Positions 2,074-32,171 of a DNA stretch of 43,073 bases are shown one piece after another (positions within the stretch are counted from its first letter, which is position 1; each line of letters begins with the position of its first letter). The stretch comes from an uncultured Bacilli bacterium. GTDB taxonomy: Bacteria > Bacillota_I > Bacilli_A > RF39 > UBA660. The notes beneath the pieces were generated by a model, which had not been told where the DNA came from, searched no databases, and saw only the letters and a list, made by a program, of their open reading frames with translations. The DNA lies in NCBI GenBank assembly GCA_905235065.1, contig CAJOJR010000010.1, positions 1 to 43,073 of the forward strand, written 5' to 3'. The position numbers and the translations under genes were made by a program.

Positions 2074-2954
2074 GTATATGGACTAATAGAGATTTTAAAC
2101 CTATGCTTTTAAAACAAATATATAAACCTTTTAATGATAAAGATTTTATTTATGAAATAAAATTTGATGGACATAGAGCTTTAATATTTGTAAATAATAA
2201 GAGTATTTTAATACAAAGTAGAAATAGAAAAGATGTAACTTATTTATATCCGGAACTTAAAAGTATTAAAGAGTTAGTGAATAAAAATGTTATATTTGAT
2301 GGTGAAATAATTTGTGAGAGTGATGGTAAACCATCTTTTAGAAACCTTCAAAAAAGAAGTCATTTAAAGAATAAAACTCAAATAAAAAAAGAAATGATGA
2401 ATAATCCAGTAAAGTTTATAGTATTTGATATTTTATATGAGAATAAGGATATAACTAATTTGAGTTTAATTAAAAGAAAAGAAATACTTAGTAAATATAA
2501 AGATACTGATGTATTTATTAAATCTAAATACATAGAAGAAAAGGGAATCGAACTATTTAAAAAAATTAAAAAACTTAATTTAGAGGGAATAGTTTGTAAA
2601 GATATAAATGGAAAGTATCATATAAACAAAAGAACTTATGATTTTATTAAGATAAAAAACATTGAAAGGGATGAATTTTATATTGGAGGTTATGTTGAAA
2701 ATAAAAATAATACAGTTTCTTTATTGTTGGGTGAATATAATAAAGATAAATTTATGTATGCTGGTAAAGTTATTATGAATAAGGATAAAAAATTATATAA
2801 GAAAATAAAATCCAAACGAAAAAGTAAAAATTATTTTATTGATTATAAAAAAGAAGGGATTTTTATTAAACCAGAATTAACATGTTTTGTAGAATATCAA
2901 GAAAGGACAAAGTCTAATCATTTAAGGCACTCTATATATAAAGATTATGAATAA
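2070..2954 (+). CDS. ATP-dependent DNA ligase, LigD ligase-domain type, stand-alone
   Basis: A 294-residue ATP-dependent DNA ligase. The adenylated lysine is Lys31 in EIKFDGHR (motif I). FIVFDILYE, EGIVCKD and FIKIKN correspond to motifs III, IV and V, and the C-terminal part is the OB-fold. It matches the ligase module of LigD but has no polymerase or phosphoesterase module, which are encoded by the next gene instead. It overlaps ku by 4 bases and the next gene by 8, so the three products are likely made together and work as one repair complex on chromosomal breaks. Confidence 0.93.
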   Translation: MSIWTNRDFKPMLLKQIYKPFNDKDFIYEIKFDGHRALIFVNNKSILIQSRNRKDVTYLYPELKSIKELVNKNVIFDGEIICESDGKPSFRNLQKRSHLKNKTQIKKEMMNNPVKFIVFDILYENKDITNLSLIKRKEILSKYKDTDVFIKSKYIEEKGIELFKKIKKLNLEGIVCKDINGKYHINKRTYDFIKIKNIERDEFYIGGYVENKNNTVSLLLGEYNKDKFMYAGKVIMNKDKKLYKKIKSKRKSKNYFIDYKKEGIFIKPELTCFVEYQERTKSNHLRHSIYKDYE

Positions 2955-4293
2955 TTTAAAAGAATATAATAAAAAAAGAAATTTTAATAAAACTAAAGAG
3001 CCAAAAGGGAAAAAAATTAAATCTAATAAAAAGAATTTGAAATATGTCGTACAGCATCATTTGGCTAGAAAGGATCATTATGATTTAAGACTTGAATGGA
3101 ATGGAGTATATGTTAGTTTTGCGATTCCTAAGGGACCATCTTTTAATCCCAAAGACAAAAGACTTGCGGTACATGTTGAAGATCATCCGATAAGTTATGG
3201 AAATTTTGAGGGAATTATAGGAAAAGGACAATATGGAGCGGGAACTGTAATGCTTTGGGATAAAGGTTATTGGTATCCAACACATAATCCCGATTTTGAA
3301 ACGTTAGTAAAATTTGAATTAGATGGAGAAAGATTAAAAGGCAAGTGGTCATTAATTAAATTTAAAGATGATAATTATTTGTTAATAAAAGAAAATGATA
3401 AATACAAAAAGAGTAGTAATGGAATTAGTAAATTTAAAACAAGTATTAAGACTCATAGAACTTTTGATGAGATAGAAGAAGGTATAGAGAAAATAGAAAT
3501 CACCAATCCGGATAAGATAATATTTCCTAAAAGTAAAATAACTAAAGGGAATATAGTGGAGTATTATAAAAAAGTAAGTAAAAGAATGTTTAAATTTTTA
3601 AATAATAGATTAATAAGTACGGTAAGAGCTCCACAAGGAATTAATGATGAAATATTCTTTATGAAACATTTAAATACTGAATCTAAAAATTTGAGTAAAA
3701 AGAAAATCAAAGGCGAAGATTATTATTATATTAAAAATGAAAACGGAATAATTGATGAAGTCCAAATGAACAGTTATGAATTTCATATTTGGGGAAGTCC
3801 TCAAAATGATATAAATCATCCTGACTTATTGGTATTTGATTTTGATCCTGATGAAAAATTATCTTTAAAAAAATTAAGAAATGGTGTTAAAGATTTAAAA
3901 AAAATATTAGATAAATTAAAACTTAAAAGTTATTTGAAAACTAGTGGTGGTAAGGGATATCATGTTTTTATTCCTTTAAAAACTTCTTCATGGAAAGAAA
4001 CAGAGAGTATTGCCAAAAATATTAGTGAGTTAATGATTCAAAATAATCCAAATAAATATACAACCAATATGAGAATGAATAAAAGAGAAGGCAAAATATT
4101 TATAGATTATTTTAGAAATAAAAAAAGCGCTACTAGTGTATGCCCATATTCAATGAGATTAAAAGAATCGGGAACTGTATCCTGTCCAATTTCTTGGAGT
4201 GAATTAGATAAAATAAAACCCAAAGATATAACTATTAAAAATATAGATAAAAGATTAAAAAAGAAAGATCCATGGAATAATTTTTATGATTAA
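2947..4293 (+). CDS. LigD-type phosphoesterase-polymerase fusion
   Basis: A 448-residue protein carrying the other two LigD modules. Residues about 30-170 are the 3'-phosphoesterase: His38, His44 and Asp46 in QHHLARKDHYDLRLE and His76 in VHVEDHP match its catalytic ligands. Residues about 185-448 are the primase-like polymerase: DFDPD with Asp298 and Asp300, SGGKGYH at 333-339 and a third Asp at 387 (FIDY). In classical LigD these are fused to the ligase; here the ligase is the preceding gene with an 8-base overlap. It would clean and fill broken ends before sealing. All key residues appear intact. Confidence 0.93.
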   Translation: MNNLKEYNKKRNFNKTKEPKGKKIKSNKKNLKYVVQHHLARKDHYDLRLEWNGVYVSFAIPKGPSFNPKDKRLAVHVEDHPISYGNFEGIIGKGQYGAGTVMLWDKGYWYPTHNPDFETLVKFELDGERLKGKWSLIKFKDDNYLLIKENDKYKKSSNGISKFKTSIKTHRTFDEIEEGIEKIEITNPDKIIFPKSKITKGNIVEYYKKVSKRMFKFLNNRLISTVRAPQGINDEIFFMKHLNTESKNLSKKKIKGEDYYYIKNENGIIDEVQMNSYEFHIWGSPQNDINHPDLLVFDFDPDEKLSLKKLRNGVKDLKKILDKLKLKSYLKTSGGKGYHVFIPLKTSSWKETESIAKNISELMIQNNPNKYTTNMRMNKREGKIFIDYFRNKKSATSVCPYSMRLKESGTVSCPISWSELDKIKPKDITIKNIDKRLKKKDPWNNFYD

Positions 4294-4948: not shown

Positions 4949-7258
4949 ATGACTAATATTTCAAAATCGGAGATAGATTTATTAAATAAATATTTTAGAG
5001 CAGCTAATTATGTTTCTGCTTGCCAGCTTTATTTACTTGATAATCCTTTATTAAAAAGAAAACTAGAAATAACCGATATTAAAAATAAAATTGTTGGTCA
5101 CTGGGGAACTGTACCTGGTCAAAACTTTGTTTATACTCATTTAAATAGAATTGTTAAAAAATATAATTTAAATATATTATATATTTCTGGACCTGGTCAT
5201 GGGGGAAATGCAACTGTTGCGAATGATTATTTAGATGGTTCTTATACAGAAATATATCCTAATATCACTGAGGATGAGGAAGGACTTAAAAAGTTATTTA
5301 AACAATTTAGTTTTCCAAAAGGAATATCTTCTCACGCTGCACCAGAAACACCTGGTAGTATAAATGAAGGAGGAGAACTTGGATATTCACTTTCACATGC
5401 TTATGGAGCAGTTCTTGATAATCCTAATTTAATAGTTGCTTGTGTCGTGGGTGATGGTGAAGCAGAAACTGGACCACTTGCGACTTCTTGGCATGGTAAT
5501 AAATTTATAAATCCTTCAACTGATGGAGTTGTTTTACCAATATTACATTTAAATGGTTATAAGATTGCCAATCCAACAATTCTTGGAAGAATGACTGATG
5601 AAGAGTTAAATTATTATTTTAAATCTCTTGGATATAAACCTTATTTTGTTGAAGGTAGAGAACCGCTTGTAATGCATAAAAAGATGGCAACAATAATGGA
5701 TAAAATTGTTAATGACATTGCTAGAATTAAAAGAAAGAATATCATTAATGAATGGCCAATTATTATTTTAAGAACTCCTAAAGGATGGACATGTCCTAAA
5801 ATGGTTGATGGTGAAAAAGTAGAAAATAGTTTTAGGTCTCATCAAGTACCTGTAAACAAGTATAATATAAGAGTTTTGGAACGCTGGTTGAAAAGTTATA
5901 AACCTGATGAATTATTTGATGAAAATGGAACGCTTAATAAAGAAATAAAAAGTATTCTTCCAGCTGGAAATAAAAGAATAGGATTAAATCCTAGTGCTAA
6001 TGGAGGACTTTTATTAAAAGAATTAAACATTCCTGATTTAAAGGATTATGAATTTAAATTTACTAGACGTGGAAACACTCAGGCTAGTGATATGTATAAT
6101 TTGGGAAAATACATAAAAGATTTAATGAAATTGAACAAAAATAATTACATGATTTTTGGACCAGATGAAGCTCTTTCTAATAGACTTAATCAAGTATTTG
6201 AAAAAAACACAAGAAAATGGAACTATAGGACTTTTATGAATGATGAACTTATGAGTCCGACTGGTAGAGTGATGGATGCAATGCTATCTGAGCATATGTG
6301 TGAAGGTATGCTTGAAGGTTATATTCTTACTGGAAGGCACGGTATGTTTAATAGCTATGAAGCATTTGTTAGAATAGTTGATTCAATGGCATCTCAACAC
6401 GCTAAATGGTTAAAAGTGTGCTCTGAGCTTCCTTGGAGAAAAGATATATCATCTTTAAACTATATTCTTACTTCCCACTGCTGGCAGCAAGATCATAATG
6501 GATTTACTCATCAAGACCCAGGCTTCTTAAATCATTTAGTTACTAAAAAATCAGATATAGTTAGATTTTATCTTCCATTTGATACTAATACTTTACTTTC
6601 TTGTTATGATCATGTGGTTCAAACTAAAAACTATATAAATGTAATAGTTGCATCTAAACATTTTAGACCACAATGGATGAGAATGGATGAAGCAATAAAA
6701 CATTGCAAAAAAGGAATTGATATATTAAAATGGGCAAGTGATGAAGGAAGACCTAATATAATACTTGCTTGTGCTGGAGATACTCCAACTTTAGAAGTCC
6801 TTGCTGCTAAATCTATACTTAAAAACAAATTACCTAAATTAAAAGTTAGAGTAGTAAATTGTGTTGACTTATTTAAATTGGAGACACCTAAAAATCATCC
6901 ACATGGTTTGAGTAATAAAGAATATAATAAGTTATTTCCTAAGAGTGTTCCAGTAATATTTAACTTCCATGGATATCCTAGCTTAATACATGAACTTACT
7001 TATAATAGGGATAATCACGATAAAATACATGTAAGAGGTTATATAGAAGAAGGCACAATAACAACACCATTTGATATGAGAGTTCAAAATAAAATAGATA
7101 GATATCATTTAATTATTGATGCAATTAAATATTCTAAAATTAAAGATGCTGAAGATGTTATTAAATATTGTGAAAAGATGTTAAAAAAACATAATAAGTA
7201 CATAGGTGAATATGGAAAAGATATAGAAGAAGTAGAAAACTGGAAATGGAAGAATTGA
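4949..7258 (+). CDS. xfp: Xylulose-5-phosphate/fructose-6-phosphate phosphoketolase
   Basis: A 769-residue thiamine-diphosphate enzyme that splits xylulose-5-P or fructose-6-P with phosphate to give acetyl-phosphate plus glyceraldehyde-3-P or erythrose-4-P. Diagnostic blocks are GHWGTVPGQNF, ISGPGHGGNA, the ThDP/Mg motif GDGEAETGPLATSWHGNKF, and HLNGYKIANPT; the length is normal. It is preceded by a -10 TATAAT at 4918-4923 and GAAGGTGA before the ATG, and stands alone. With acetate kinase (24241) the cell can convert acetyl-phosphate to acetate and ATP, bypassing pyruvate. The TGA stop lies inside a promoter for the antisense RNA downstream. Confidence 0.96.
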   Translation: MTNISKSEIDLLNKYFRAANYVSACQLYLLDNPLLKRKLEITDIKNKIVGHWGTVPGQNFVYTHLNRIVKKYNLNILYISGPGHGGNATVANDYLDGSYTEIYPNITEDEEGLKKLFKQFSFPKGISSHAAPETPGSINEGGELGYSLSHAYGAVLDNPNLIVACVVGDGEAETGPLATSWHGNKFINPSTDGVVLPILHLNGYKIANPTILGRMTDEELNYYFKSLGYKPYFVEGREPLVMHKKMATIMDKIVNDIARIKRKNIINEWPIIILRTPKGWTCPKMVDGEKVENSFRSHQVPVNKYNIRVLERWLKSYKPDELFDENGTLNKEIKSILPAGNKRIGLNPSANGGLLLKELNIPDLKDYEFKFTRRGNTQASDMYNLGKYIKDLMKLNKNNYMIFGPDEALSNRLNQVFEKNTRKWNYRTFMNDELMSPTGRVMDAMLSEHMCEGMLEGYILTGRHGMFNSYEAFVRIVDSMASQHAKWLKVCSELPWRKDISSLNYILTSHCWQQDHNGFTHQDPGFLNHLVTKKSDIVRFYLPFDTNTLLSCYDHVVQTKNYINVIVASKHFRPQWMRMDEAIKHCKKGIDILKWASDEGRPNIILACAGDTPTLEVLAAKSILKNKLPKLKVRVVNCVDLFKLETPKNHPHGLSNKEYNKLFPKSVPVIFNFHGYPSLIHELTYNRDNHDKIHVRGYIEEGTITTPFDMRVQNKIDRYHLIIDAIKYSKIKDAEDVIKYCEKMLKKHNKYIGEYGKDIEEVENWKWKN

Positions 7259-7311: not shown

Positions 7312-7343
7312 AAAAAAGGGCACACCTTAAAGAATAGGTGCGC
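7312..7343 (-). terminator. Terminator of the putative toxin mRNA
   Basis: Read on the - strand, GCGCACCT (7343-7336) and AGGTGTGC (7327-7320) form a stem with one mismatch, followed by CC and a run of T (7317-7312). It would end a - strand transcript coming from the 26-aa peptide gene. Confidence 0.65.
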
Positions 7344-7354
7344 TCATTTCTGGA

Positions 7355-7376
7355 CACACACTAGCCCTTGTTAAGG
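7355..7376 (+). repeat. Direct repeat, copy 1 (antitoxin RNA side)
   Basis: 22 bases beginning CACACACTA and ending TTAAGG, 18 identical to 7506-7527. It lies in the terminator stem of the putative antisense RNA. Confidence 0.7.
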
Positions 7377-7394
7377 CTAGTGTGCTTTTTATTT
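7357..7394 (+). terminator. Terminator of the putative antitoxin RNA
   Basis: CACACTAGCC (7357-7366) pairs perfectly with GGCTAGTGTG (7375-7384) around an 8-base loop, and CTTTTTATTT follows. It is a strong + strand terminator in the overlap between the two convergent transcripts. Confidence 0.8.
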
Positions 7395-7469
7395 AAATAT
7401 CAATGCTATAAACAAAGATACAAACAAGAGGATAATAATGAAAAAATAAGATTTCTCTCGTTTAGTCAT
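7389..7469 (-). CDS. Small hydrophobic peptide, putative type I toxin
   Basis: A 26-residue peptide: a short basic head (MTKREKSYF) followed by one continuous hydrophobic helix and a terminal Lys, the plan of Fst/TxpA-like membrane toxins. A very strong ribosome binding site (AAGGGGGTG, 7484-7476 on this strand) precedes the ATG, but CCTTAAAA (7481-7488) and TTTTAAGG (7496-7503) form a perfect 8-bp stem that would sequester it. A second homologous peptide lies at 12948-13028 with 19 of 26 residues identical. Coding potential is supported by that conservation; toxicity is inference from architecture. Confidence 0.68.
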   Translation of the reverse strand: MTKREKSYFFIIILLFVSLFIALIFK

Positions 7470-7480
7470 GCATATCACCC

Positions 7481-7503
7481 CCTTAAAATTTATAGTTTTA
7501 AGG
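7481..7503 (-). promoter_or_regulatory. Hairpin sequestering the toxin ribosome binding site
   Basis: CCTTAAAA at 7481-7488 is the exact inverse complement of TTTTAAGG at 7496-7503, with a 7-base loop. In the - strand mRNA the 3' arm is part of the AAGGGGG ribosome binding site. Fst-type mRNAs use a comparable upstream helix to limit translation. Confidence 0.6.
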
Positions 7504-7505
7504 AG

Positions 7506-7527
7506 CACACACTAACCTCTATTAAGG
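7506..7527 (+). repeat. Direct repeat, copy 2 (toxin mRNA leader side)
   Basis: 22 bases beginning CACACACTA and ending TTAAGG, in the same orientation as 7355-7376 but transcribed from the opposite strand in the toxin mRNA leader. This makes the two RNAs complementary here, as with the DRa/DRb repeats of par loci. Confidence 0.7.
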
Positions 7528-7698
7528 TATGTCTAAATGATATTGTCACATTAAAAATAGTGAATCAAATGAGTGGATTTTTAATTTTATTATTTTAAAA
7601 ATCTTATTTAGGTATAGCAATTTTTAAAATATTTAACATTAAATAATATGTAAAAATAAATTTTATATTTAAATTCATAAATTTAAGATAGTTAATAA

Positions 7699-7727
7699 TT
7701 GACAAACATATAATAAAAACGTATAAT
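7699..7727 (+). promoter_or_regulatory. Promoter of the aspS-serS operon
   Basis: A perfect TTGACA at 7699-7704, a 17-base spacer and a perfect TATAAT at 7722-7727. Transcription would begin near 7734, which fixes the 5' end of the T-box leader. Between the toxin mRNA start (about 7550) and this promoter I see only AT-rich sequence. Confidence 0.85.
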
Positions 7728-7733
7728 TTATAT

Positions 7734-7873
7734 CGTAATTTACTTACTCTTAGTGACAAAGAAGTAGCGAAAAGTAGATAGCAGGTCTGCTATAAAGACA
7801 TTAAAGAGCATAGAAATCTATGAAATTAGGTGGCACCGCGAAAATATTCGTCCTAATGATATAGATTTTTTTT
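7734..7873 (+). promoter_or_regulatory. T-box riboswitch leader of aspS-serS, unusually short
   Basis: The universal T-box sequence AGGTGGCACCGCG lies at 7828-7840 with its antiterminator partner CGTCCT at 7849-7854. The competing terminator pairs AAATCTAT...ATTAGG (7814-7830) with CCTAAT...ATAGATTT (7852-7867) and ends in a T run. A perfect hairpin TAGCAG-GT-CTGCTA precedes it. Uncharged tRNA would favour antitermination and expression of the synthetases. From the promoter the leader is only about 140 nt, so stem I must be much reduced. GAC (Asp) at 7755-7757 is my best guess for the specifier codon; AGT (Ser) overlaps it. Confidence 0.88.
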
Positions 7874-7891
7874 GTTTTAAAAGGAGGAAAA

Positions 7892-9631
7892 ATGAAAACA
7901 ATAATGAATAACACATTAAGTATAAGTGATGTTAATAAAGAAGTTACTTTATATGGATGGATTTCTAAAAAAAGAAATTTAGGTAATCTAATATTCATTG
8001 ATTTAAGAGATAGAAGTGGAATAATTCAACTTTCTTTTAAGAGTGGAAGTGAATGCTATGAACTTGCTAATACTGTTAAAAACGAATATGTTTTAAAAGT
8101 TAAAGGTAAAGTGGTTGAAAGAGAAAGTAAGAATCCTAATTTGGATACTGGTGATATAGAAATAAATGTTGAAGAATTAGAAGTCTTAAATACTTCAGCA
8201 GAATTACCTTTTGAAATAAGTGATAATACGACTGCTTTAGAAGACACCAGACTTAAATATAGATATTTAGATATAAGAAGAAATAATGTTAAAAATAATT
8301 TGATTTTAAAGCATAAAGTAATGCTTGCTGTTAGAAATTATTTCGATAAAAAAGGATTTATTGAGGTTGAAACTCCGATACTTGGTAAATCAACTCCGGA
8401 GGGTGCTAGAGATTATCTTGTTCCTAGTAGAGTAAGTAAAGGTAAATACTATGCTTTACCACAATCTCCACAATTATTTAAACAATTACTAATGATTGGT
8501 GGAATTGAAAAATATTTTCAAATTGCTAGATGCTTTAGAGATGAAGATTTAAGAGCGGATAGACAACCAGAATTTACTCAAATAGATGTTGAAATGAGTT
8601 TTGTAGATGAAAATGATGTAATGAGTATTGGTGAAGAAATGATGAATTATATCTTTAAAGAAACAATTGGATATGATTTAGGGCTTCCTCTACAAAGAAT
8701 GAAATATGATGATGCTATTAAGTATTATGGTTCTGATAAACCAGATTTAAGATTTGATATGAAAATTAATGACATAACAGAAATTCTTAAAAATAATAAT
8801 AGTGATTTATTTAAAAATGTTATTAGTTCTAATGGTGTTATTAATGCTTTAGTTGTTAAAAATGTAGCTGATAAATATTCAAGAAAAGAATTAGATAAGT
8901 TAACCGAATTTGTTAAAACTTATAGAGCTAATGGGCTTGCTTATATTAAGTTTAATGAGGAGATTACTGGAAGTGTTGTTAAATTATTAACAGAAGGAGA
9001 AATAAAATCTTTAAAAGAAAATCTTAATATTGAAAACAATGATTTATTGTTAATTATATTAGGTGAATATAATATTGTTAAGACTTCATTAGGCGCTTTA
9101 AGATGCAAACTTGGTAAAGACTTAAATCTATATAGTAATGATGTTTATAAAGCTTTATGGGTAGTTGATTTCCCATCATTTGAATGGAGTGAAGAAGAGG
9201 GCAGATTTGTGGCTTGCCATCATCCGTTTACTGCTCCAAAAGATGAGGATATTGATAAATTGTTAACTGATAAAGCTCATTGTTATTCAAAAGCTTATGA
9301 TATTGTTATTAATGGTTATGAAGCAGGCGGAGGAAGTATTAGAATTCATAATAAAGAAGTACAATCTAAAATGTTTGAAGCTTTAGGACTTAGTATGGAA
9401 ACTGCCAAAGAAAAATTTGGATATTTCTTAGAAGCATTTGAGTACGGTGCTCCACCACATGGAGGATATGCTTGTGGACTTGATAGAATAGTAATGCTTT
9501 TATCTAAGACAGATAATATTAGAGATGTTATAGCATTTCCAAAAACAGCCTCAGCTTCAGACTTAATGAGTGAATGTCCAAATGTAGTTGATGAGACGCA
9601 ATTAAAAGAACTACATATTAAGAATGAATAG
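7892..9631 (+). CDS. aspS: Aspartyl-tRNA synthetase
   Basis: A 579-residue class II synthetase that charges tRNA-Asp, close to the usual bacterial length. The N-terminal OB-fold anticodon domain ([26 protein letters not shown]) is followed by the class II core: motif 1 near '[11 protein letters not shown]', motif 2 with [17 protein letters not shown], the bacterial insertion domain, and motif 3 in [12 protein letters not shown]. The ATG at 7892 follows an excellent AAGGAGG. It is the first gene of a T-box-controlled operon with serS, 9 bases downstream. Confidence 0.97.
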
Positions 9632-9640
9632 GAGAATATT

Positions 9641-10921
9641 ATGATAGATATTAATTTAGTAAGAGAAAATAAGACTAAAGTAAAAGAAAATATTAAAAAG
9701 AAATTTCAAGATCATAAGCTATCTTTAGTTGATGAAGTTTATAATTTAGATATTGAATATAGAAATATTAAAACTGAAGCAGATAATGCTAGAAACACTA
9801 AAAATAAATTAAGTGATTCTATAGGTCTTCTTATGAGAGAAGGCAAGAGGGAAGAAGCTGAAAATGTTAAGAAAGAGGTAAGTGAATTAAATAATAAAAT
9901 TAATGAACTATCTATTAAAGAGGAAGAACTTTCTAAAAGAATAAAAGAAATTATGTATATGATTCCAAACATTATTGATGAGGATGTTCCGATTGGTAAA
10001 GATGATTCAGAAAATGTTGAAATTCAAAAATATGGAGAACAAACATCATATAATTTTGAAGTCCCATATCATACAGAAATACTTGAAAAATTAAATGGAA
10101 TTGATTTGGATTCTGCAAGAAGGGTTTCTGGAAATGGATTTTATTATCTAACAGGTAACATTGCCAGACTTCATTCAGCGGTTATCACTTATGCAAGAGA
10201 CTTTATGATCAATAAAGGATTTACATATGTTATTCCACCTTTCATGATTCATGGAGATGTTGTAAAAGATGTAATGAGTTTTGAAGAAATGGATAATATG
10301 ATGTATAAAGTTGAAGGAGAAGATTTGTATTTAATTGGAACTTCAGAGCATTCTATGATAGGTAGATATAAAGATACTATTTTAAAAGAAAGTGAATTAC
10401 CTTTGACTCTTACAAGTTATAGTCCATGCTTTAGAAAAGAAAAAGGTGCTCATGGTATAGAAGAAAGAGGAATATATAGAATTCATCAATTTGAAAAACA
10501 AGAAATGATTGTTATATGTAAGCCTGAAGAGAGCAAAAGATACTTTGATGAAATGTGGAATTATACAGTTGAATTATTTAGAAGTTTAAATATTCCGGTT
10601 AGAACATTAGAATGCTGTAGTGGAGACTTAGCTGATCTTAAAGTTAAAAGTATAGATGTAGAAGCTTGGAGTCCAAGACAAAAGAAATATTTTGAAGTAG
10701 GAAGTTGTTCAAATTTGGGAGATGCTCAATCTAGAAGACTTGGCATTAGAGTAAATTCTGATAATGGTAAGTATTATCCTCATACACTTAATAATACAGT
10801 TGTAGCTCCCCCAAGAATGTTAATTGCATTTATTGAAAATAATTTAAATGAAGATGGAAGCATAAATATTCCAGAAGTATTAAGACCTTATATGGGTGGA
10901 CTTGAAAAAATAGAGAAGTAG
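9641..10921 (+). CDS. serS: Seryl-tRNA synthetase
   Basis: A 426-residue class II enzyme charging tRNA-Ser (and tRNA-Sec where present). Residues about 1-110 form the long antiparallel coiled-coil arm that grips the tRNA long variable loop. The catalytic core shows FRKEKGAHGIEERGIYRIHQFEKQE (motif 2 region), EVGSCSNLGDAQSRR, and motif 3 in 'NNTVVAPPRMLIAFIEN'. Start at ATG 9641 after AGGAGAA. It is cotranscribed with aspS under the T-box and followed by a terminator overlapping its stop codon. Confidence 0.97.
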   Translation: MIDINLVRENKTKVKENIKKKFQDHKLSLVDEVYNLDIEYRNIKTEADNARNTKNKLSDSIGLLMREGKREEAENVKKEVSELNNKINELSIKEEELSKRIKEIMYMIPNIIDEDVPIGKDDSENVEIQKYGEQTSYNFEVPYHTEILEKLNGIDLDSARRVSGNGFYYLTGNIARLHSAVITYARDFMINKGFTYVIPPFMIHGDVVKDVMSFEEMDNMMYKVEGEDLYLIGTSEHSMIGRYKDTILKESELPLTLTSYSPCFRKEKGAHGIEERGIYRIHQFEKQEMIVICKPEESKRYFDEMWNYTVELFRSLNIPVRTLECCSGDLADLKVKSIDVEAWSPRQKKYFEVGSCSNLGDAQSRRLGIRVNSDNGKYYPHTLNNTVVAPPRMLIAFIENNLNEDGSINIPEVLRPYMGGLEKIEK

Positions 10922-31814: not shown

Positions 31815-32171
31815 TGGTGGAGCTGACGAGTAGCGAACTCGTGTCCAAAGTACCAATTAATAGAAAGTCTACAAGTTTAGATAGTTTTATAAATTCAATA
31901 ATTGATATGGATTACTATCTTTCCCTCAATTATCTAATCCTACAAATTTCATTAATTACTCTAGGAAAAGTAAATAATATAGTTTGCTAATATGAGTCCC
32001 TTAAATTATCCGGCAAACACAGATAAAGTGGAACCACTTGCTTAAATACCTAGTTTAGGCAAAAGCAGGTGCAAAATTATTATTTTTTCCGATTATTTTC
32101 GGTTTTACATTTATAGTATGTCTACTACTTGCATTCTACCAATTAATAAATTGTCGAATCAATTCAGCCCC
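31815..32171 (-). ncRNA. ssrA: tmRNA
   Basis: About 357 nt of transfer-messenger RNA. The 5' end GGGGCTGAATTGATTCGACA (from 32171 downwards) and the 3' end GACACGAGTTCG...CAGCTCCACCA (ending at 31815) form the tRNA-like half; GGGGCTG pairs with CAGCTCC (one G-T). CCA is encoded. The tag reading frame at 32090-32058 encodes GKNNNFAPAFA and ends in TAA at 32057-32055; the exact resume codon is uncertain. It rescues stalled ribosomes with SmpB. Confidence 0.95.

Follow-up and report, generated by a model that had tools for sequence, protein, structure and literature searches.

A likely tRNA-Asp T-box riboswitch of ultrashort Stem I preceding aspS and serS in an uncultured Bacilli bacterium

How much of its tRNA-binding architecture a T-box leader can dispense with is a question raised by the region upstream of aspS in an 878-kb metagenome-assembled genome of an uncultured Bacilli bacterium. 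Transcriptional T-boxes are generally held to need a long Stem I with the IDTM, the module that binds the tRNA elbow (PMC7583486), and the forms with a short Stem I are held to depend on Stem II and to be mostly translational (PMC7583486, PMC10482949); T-box function without a K-turn has been raised as an open question (PMC7583486). The window (the whole stretch of 43,073 nt analysed here) was the subject of an earlier note, made from the sequence alone, which proposed that aspS and, in the same operon, serS are preceded by a T-box leader whose Stem I is strongly curtailed. This proposal is borne out by the gene annotation and by a match to the T-box model RF00230. The locus is organized as follows:

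7699–7727, plus strand: sigma-70 promoter TTGACA-17-TATAAT, 12/12 consensus positions, kept in the sister species G001
7892–9631, plus strand: aspS, aspartate–tRNA ligase (NF001750 838.7 bits, TIGR00459 792.6 bits; NCBIfam)
9641–10921, plus strand: serS, serine–tRNA ligase (TIGR00414 412.3 bits; NCBIfam)

Hence, the promoter deserves the description "perfect" given to it earlier, and the leader length of about 140 nt proposed along with it agrees with the 140 nt between the predicted start at about 7734 and the last U of the U-tract at 7873. The promoter, the T-box discriminator and the U8 tract are situated between a phosphoketolase gene (4949–7258) and aspS; serS follows the aspS stop codon after a gap of 9 nt. 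This adjacency is present in the window and the sister species, and only in this genus among the aspS loci checked; among these loci, serS would be under the Asp signal in this genus only. Elsewhere in the window, an ORF without a ligase domain encodes a LigD phosphoesterase and primase-polymerase protein (2947–4293). The minus strand harbors a small hydrophobic peptide, MTKREKSYFFIIILLFVSLFIALIFK (7389–7467, inside ORF 7389–7508), with terminator-like hairpins on both strands beside it (7320–7384); this may be a peptide of the type I toxin kind.

The T-box core GGTGGCACCGCG is found at 7829–7840, within the RF00230 match spanning 7713–7858. The search with this model, suggested in the earlier note, returned 49.2 bits (E 3.7e-10); with the gathering score set at 93, the leader escapes a default Rfam scan. 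The deficit sits in the Stem I region, where 9 nt are aligned in place of 88 model positions. The sole match above the cut-off in the default scan of the window is a tmRNA gene (31815–32171, minus strand; 99.9 bits). All the same, the hallmarks of a T-box leader are in place: the bulge UGGNACC between helices A1 and A2 (UGGCACC, 7831–7837, both helices paired), the specifier GAC upstream of aspS matching the tRNA-Asp(GUC) of the genome, and the conserved purine string RRRxG ... AA flanking Stem III (AAAGAG–Stem III–AA). Identity to the sister species amounts to 92% in the leader vs 82% in the upstream DNA. Given this difference, and 0/20000 in both group permutation tests described below, the leader is, on this comparative evidence, real and more than a product of chance.

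Leaders of this short form recur in related genomes. Named relatives are uncultured Bacilli, Candidatus Faecimonas and Candidatus Faecisoma, which points to the order RF39. A promoter-anchored pattern (T-box core 85–115 nt from a good promoter, loop unspecified) found matches in 45 of the 385 genomes of the order, representing up to 18 of 117 genera; this is an upper figure, as some matches are not T-boxes (e.g., L123), and leaders with weaker promoters are missed by the pattern. The reversed-pattern control yielded 1 match. Part of the short set had been gathered with a first pattern requiring GTGACA; both searches used the same sample of the order, so that the second one checks the loop, not the genomes. 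In a class-wide sample of 395 genomes, 19 matches were found, 8 of them in the family of the window. The genes behind the short leaders include aspS of different types, hisS, tyrS and glyS; some leaders precede other genes. Among close aspS orthologues with a T-box, the short form is clear only in this genus and in G023 (L029/L064), so it probably arose or moved more than once, as far as can be judged from this distribution. The very short T-boxes of tyrS (L106–L110, L120, L130–L134) and glyS (L119, L121, L124, L131) keep GAUGA/GGAG, K-turn-like motifs. In another Bacilli family, Asp-type leaders of intermediate Stem I length (L215–L219, L229) precede acetyltransferase-like genes; in these, Stem I is longer, GUGACA occupies an apparent side bulge, and the terminators are of the textbook type.

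The downstream half of the leader comprises the following elements:

7803–7824, plus strand: Stem III (7809–7822) with the flanking purine string AAAGAG ... AA; RRRxG–Stem III–AA occurs in all short leaders
7825–7857, plus strand: antiterminator, with A1 7825–7830/7852–7857, bulge UGGCACC 7831–7837 and A2 7838–7851, from the RF00230 alignment and conservation
7814–7868, plus strand: terminator outer helix 7814–7821/7861–7868, mean pair probability 0.96
7866–7873, plus strand: U8 tract of the terminator, from the sequence
7880–7887, plus strand: Shine-Dalgarno AAAGGAGG, unpaired when the terminator is folded (mean probability 0.92)

Judging by its motifs, the succession of AAAGAG–Stem III–AA, A1, UGGCACC and A2 is a standard T-box discriminator; in A2 of the sister species, an A-U pair is changed to G-C. 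In the published model, the terminator is formed by the 3' strands of A1 and A2 (PMC7583486). Here, the 3' half of Stem III, AAAUCUAU, is predicted to pair with AUAGAUUU, which borders the U8 tract; this helix encloses the antiterminator, and the two states would compete for Stem III with its purine string. Thus, the antiterminator/terminator pair previously called intact is not a textbook pair: the terminator helix lies outside the antiterminator. The best fold up to 7862 consists of Stem III and the antiterminator, and Stem III is replaced once 7868 is transcribed. The pairing of Stem III with the downstream segment beats cross-genus swapping for the group (0/20000 permutations), although not in every leader, and the window is unremarkable alone and among the weaker ones. 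The Stem III-capturing arrangement is seen in most short leaders, and a terminator helix next to a U-tract is present in nearly all of them. A Stem III-capturing terminator was also recognized, by inspection, in many full-length aspS T-boxes of the order, and the antiterminator-enclosing arrangement appears, from this comparison, to be wider than the short Stem I form. L004, a full-length T-box of the same genome, likewise has a terminator enclosing the antiterminator (by inspection). No description of such a variant was found in the literature searched, the coverage of which was incomplete.

The output looks transcriptional in the predicted folds: Stem III is taken over by a helix that runs into the U-tract, while the ribosome site remains accessible. 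A translational T-box, switching access to the Shine-Dalgarno sequence and not termination in the manner of the class III short-Stem-I ileS leaders of Actinobacteria, is an unlikely alternative. The class III plan is indeed that of a short Stem I with an apical specifier and no IDTM, classes III and IV are mostly translational (PMC10482949), and UCCU in the 3' strand of A1 could pair with AGGA of the Shine-Dalgarno sequence. However, the helix ends right at the U8 tract, with U-rich tracts after the helix in the relatives too, the Shine-Dalgarno sequence is unpaired in the off fold (0.92), and the short tyrS leader L092 has a textbook intrinsic terminator.

The upstream half of the leader contains these elements:

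7739–7778, plus strand: ultrashort Stem I, with outer helix 7739–7745/7772–7778, inner helix 7746–7751/7759–7765 and bulge 7766–7771, from comparison with 30 short Asp leaders
7752–7758, plus strand: apical loop AGUGACA with the Asp specifier GAC (7755–7757), kept in relatives and complementary to the anticodon loop of tRNA-Asp
7780–7799, plus strand: Stem IIA/B-like pseudoknot, with hairpin AGCA/UGCU and loop GUC (7785–7787) paired with GAC (7797–7799), by inspection

Stem I of the window takes up only about 45 nt. The AGAGA/GNUGG module is missing, as expected earlier from the length of the leader, where Stem I was thought to lack most of the apical module contacting the tRNA elbow. In the full-length relatives, the specifier lies downstream of the apical module; in the window it is separated from the predicted start by about 20 nt, so no apical module fits in either register of Stem I considered below. 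A start farther upstream giving a full-length Stem I, the finding named in the earlier note as contrary to its proposal, did not emerge: no AGAGA motif occurs at 7400–7760. The six other T-boxes of the genome, preceding asnS, apparent valS, thrS and tyrS genes and two unnamed genes (names obtained in part by reading the protein sequences), retain AGAGA together with a GNUGG-type motif in every case.

When the specifier was constrained to be single-stranded, most short Asp leaders folded into a shared plan of two helices, outer and inner, with about 7–11 nt in the loop and a one-sided 3' bulge. The helix sequences differ by genus (GUAAG/CUUAC, GUACU/AGUAC, CUUAUG/CAUAAG, UUAAGG/CCUUAA and others), with the pairing retained within each leader. 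In the Asp group, Stem I pairing amounted to −10.1 kcal/mol within leaders vs −6.2 kcal/mol across genera (0/20000 permutations, not an exact probability, as the set includes related leaders). These cross-genus energies were used in place of a covariance model, the MAFFT alignment with masked loops having misaligned the Stem I loops. Shuffling of the inner hairpin likewise gave group-level support for the Asp set (mean 5.7 vs 3.7 bp). The tyrS group was unsupported in this test (3.8 vs 3.6 bp), hence we do not propose that its specifier lies in an apical loop.

In the shared plan, the window reads UUUACUU/AAGUAGA and ACUCUU/AAGAAGU (with one bulged A); in the sister species, the lone U-G pair of the outer helix becomes U-A, and its own best fold contains the hairpin CUCUU-AGUGACA-AAGAG. 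The minimum-energy fold of the window adopts another Stem I register, 5.4 kcal/mol better over 7734–7795, its inner hairpin, taken by itself, does not outperform shuffled sequences (fraction 0.58), and RNAalifold applied to the window and the sister species did not pick one register. For the window itself, the apical-loop plan is thus suggested by comparison, its own lowest-energy register being different.

Between Stem I and the purine string, only 24 nt (7779–7802) remain; they are occupied by the IIA/B-like element, leaving no room for a Stem II with an S-turn. The loop of the pseudoknot and its partner change together in relatives (AUC/GAU, CUUU/AAAG, UAAGUA/UACUUA), as judged by inspection, with ambiguity in genus g81. 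By the consensus criterion, the K-turn is absent in the Asp set: there is an A-rich one-sided 3' bulge with almost nothing on the 5' side.

Such a degree of reduction could also be read as decay, with Stem I lost and a remnant insensitive to tRNA, so that the leader would be constitutive or merely attenuated. Stem I is energetically weak in the window (−3.5 kcal/mol alone), and the 878-kb genome may be undergoing reduction. At the same time, the leader is conserved better than its upstream DNA, the GUGAC sequence, the Stem III motif and the T-box bulge are kept across many genera, and the Stem I pairs persist while the sequences change. Decay is therefore regarded as slightly less probable even than the translational account.

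The identity of the specifier was left between Asp (GAC) and Ser (AGT) in the earlier note, the two overlapping in AGTGAC, which occupies 7752–7757 and not, as given there, 7753–7757. The Asp part of this suggestion stands and the Ser part falls: the leaders of relatives keep GUGAC but differ in the base that would make up AGU (A, G, C or U). The anticodon loop of the tRNA-Asp of the same genome is CUGUCAC, and AGUGACA is complementary to UGUCAC over six pairs; the computed duplex has −6.7 kcal/mol vs −4.4 for the full-length context GAAGACAUC. On this conservation and complementarity, the specifier is Asp GAC. A tRNA-Ser leader serving serS is highly improbable and was rejected on conservation and pairing energies: AGU (7752–7754) does overlap the loop and serS does come second in the operon, but GUGAC is constant among relatives with a variable AGU-completing base, their downstream genes are aspS or hisS, serS adjacency is restricted to this genus among the loci checked, and AGU needs a wobble pair with the tRNA-Ser anticodon GCU (computed duplex −1.0 vs −6.7 kcal/mol for tRNA-Asp).

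The context of the codon also distinguishes the Asp leaders of the two forms. In the short ones, U always precedes the codon, usually as GUGACA, and the search that did not require GTGACA returned the loops GUGACA, GUGACG, UUGACG and, once, CUAACA with an Asn codon. In the full-length aspS T-boxes of relatives, the codon is preceded by A in 31/31 leaders (GAAGACA, AAAGACA or similar); the extraction pattern required this A, yet every leader matched. With UUAC in the short tyrS leaders and UGGAA in the glyS ones, a U before the codon is, to judge from these sequences, general in the short set. The anticodon loops of tRNA-Tyr and tRNA-Asn are CUGUAAA and CUGUUAA, respectively, so this U can pair with A37 of these two tRNAs.

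Collectively, the locus is likely to carry a tRNA-Asp T-box riboswitch with an ultrashort Stem I attenuating the transcription of aspS–serS. Sequence and computation show the promoter, the discriminator, the identity of the specifier, the loss of the elbow module, the terminator helix with its U-tract, and the recurrence in relatives; from these we infer tRNA binding, a six-pair contact, a switch and an effect on expression, which would operate as follows. The small hairpin would display GUGACA in its apical loop for pairing with the tRNA-Asp anticodon loop: GAC would bind the anticodon GUC, and the neighboring U, G and A would bind A37, C38 and U33, respectively. Raising the number of pairs from three to as many as six may offset the loss of the elbow-binding module, the Stem II S-turn and the K-turn. 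The riboswitch reading as a whole is also favored by the recovery of the same loops in the search not specifying them. With uncharged tRNA, UGGC of the T-box bulge would capture the NCCA end, Stem III and the purine string would dock, and RNA polymerase would read through. With charged or absent tRNA, the 3' half of Stem III would pair with 7861–7868, yielding the terminator helix beside the U8 tract, inside which the antiterminator helix A1 would remain folded.

Among the known systems, the class III leaders (ileS of Nocardia farcinica and Mycobacterium tuberculosis) likewise lack the IDTM and have an apical-loop specifier and the same discriminator core (PMC10482949, PMC7583486), and the short Stem I, apical specifier and absence of the IDTM are all found here (in the window, by comparison). 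However, class III has an apical loop of 5–6 nt, whereas here it is 7 nt in the comparative fold and about 7–11 nt in relatives. Class III also needs Stem II with an S-turn and a K-turn; here, Stem II and the K-turn consensus are absent. Finally, class III acts mostly, although not universally, on translation, and here a U-tract terminator follows, with a predicted free Shine-Dalgarno sequence. The transcriptional classes I and II (tyrS and glyQS of B. subtilis) have in common with the leader the discriminator, the T-box bulge, an intrinsic terminator and a synthetase gene, and class II, like this leader, is without Stem II. Unlike it, they possess a long Stem I with the IDTM (AGAGA and UGxRA loops), carry the specifier in a side loop and build the terminator from the 3' strands of A1 and A2 (PMC7583486); nor is the Stem II with an S-turn of class I found here. 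Class IV, with its intermediate Stem I, lacks the IDTM as well, but its Stem I is longer and holds the specifier in a side bulge; L215–L219 look closer to this class. The full-length aspS T-boxes of the order (L015, L017–L019, L022, L025, L138–L158) have the same gene, discriminator and Stem III-capturing terminator, with GAC or GAU as the specifier; they keep AGAGA, GNUGG-type motifs and A before the codon, whereas the short leaders have U.

Being a T-box by its discriminator, the leader fits none of the four published classes (PMC10482949), since it combines the IDTM loss and apical specifier of class III with the terminator of classes I/II and is devoid of the Stem II S-turn and the K-turn. 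More tentatively, and with somewhat less than even confidence, a further T-box class is suggested: transcriptional, lacking the IDTM, the Stem II S-turn and the K-turn, with a loop–loop contact involving five to seven anticodon-loop bases and a terminator capturing Stem III while the antiterminator helix stays folded. No description of the short form was found in the literature searched, with subscription papers incompletely covered; the TBDB paper refers to T-boxes whose Stem I is truncated, and some members of the short set may already be in TBDB unremarked.

Overall, these leaders apparently constitute a recurrent, undescribed set of very short T-boxes in uncultured gut Bacilli, as the genome comparisons suggest, and the Rfam cut-off misses this set of probable regulators. 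If the proposed mechanism is true, anticodon-loop pairing and the discriminator can suffice in a natural transcriptional T-box. This would bear directly on the question of K-turn-free T-box function and would provide structural biology and RNA design with a compact tRNA sensor.
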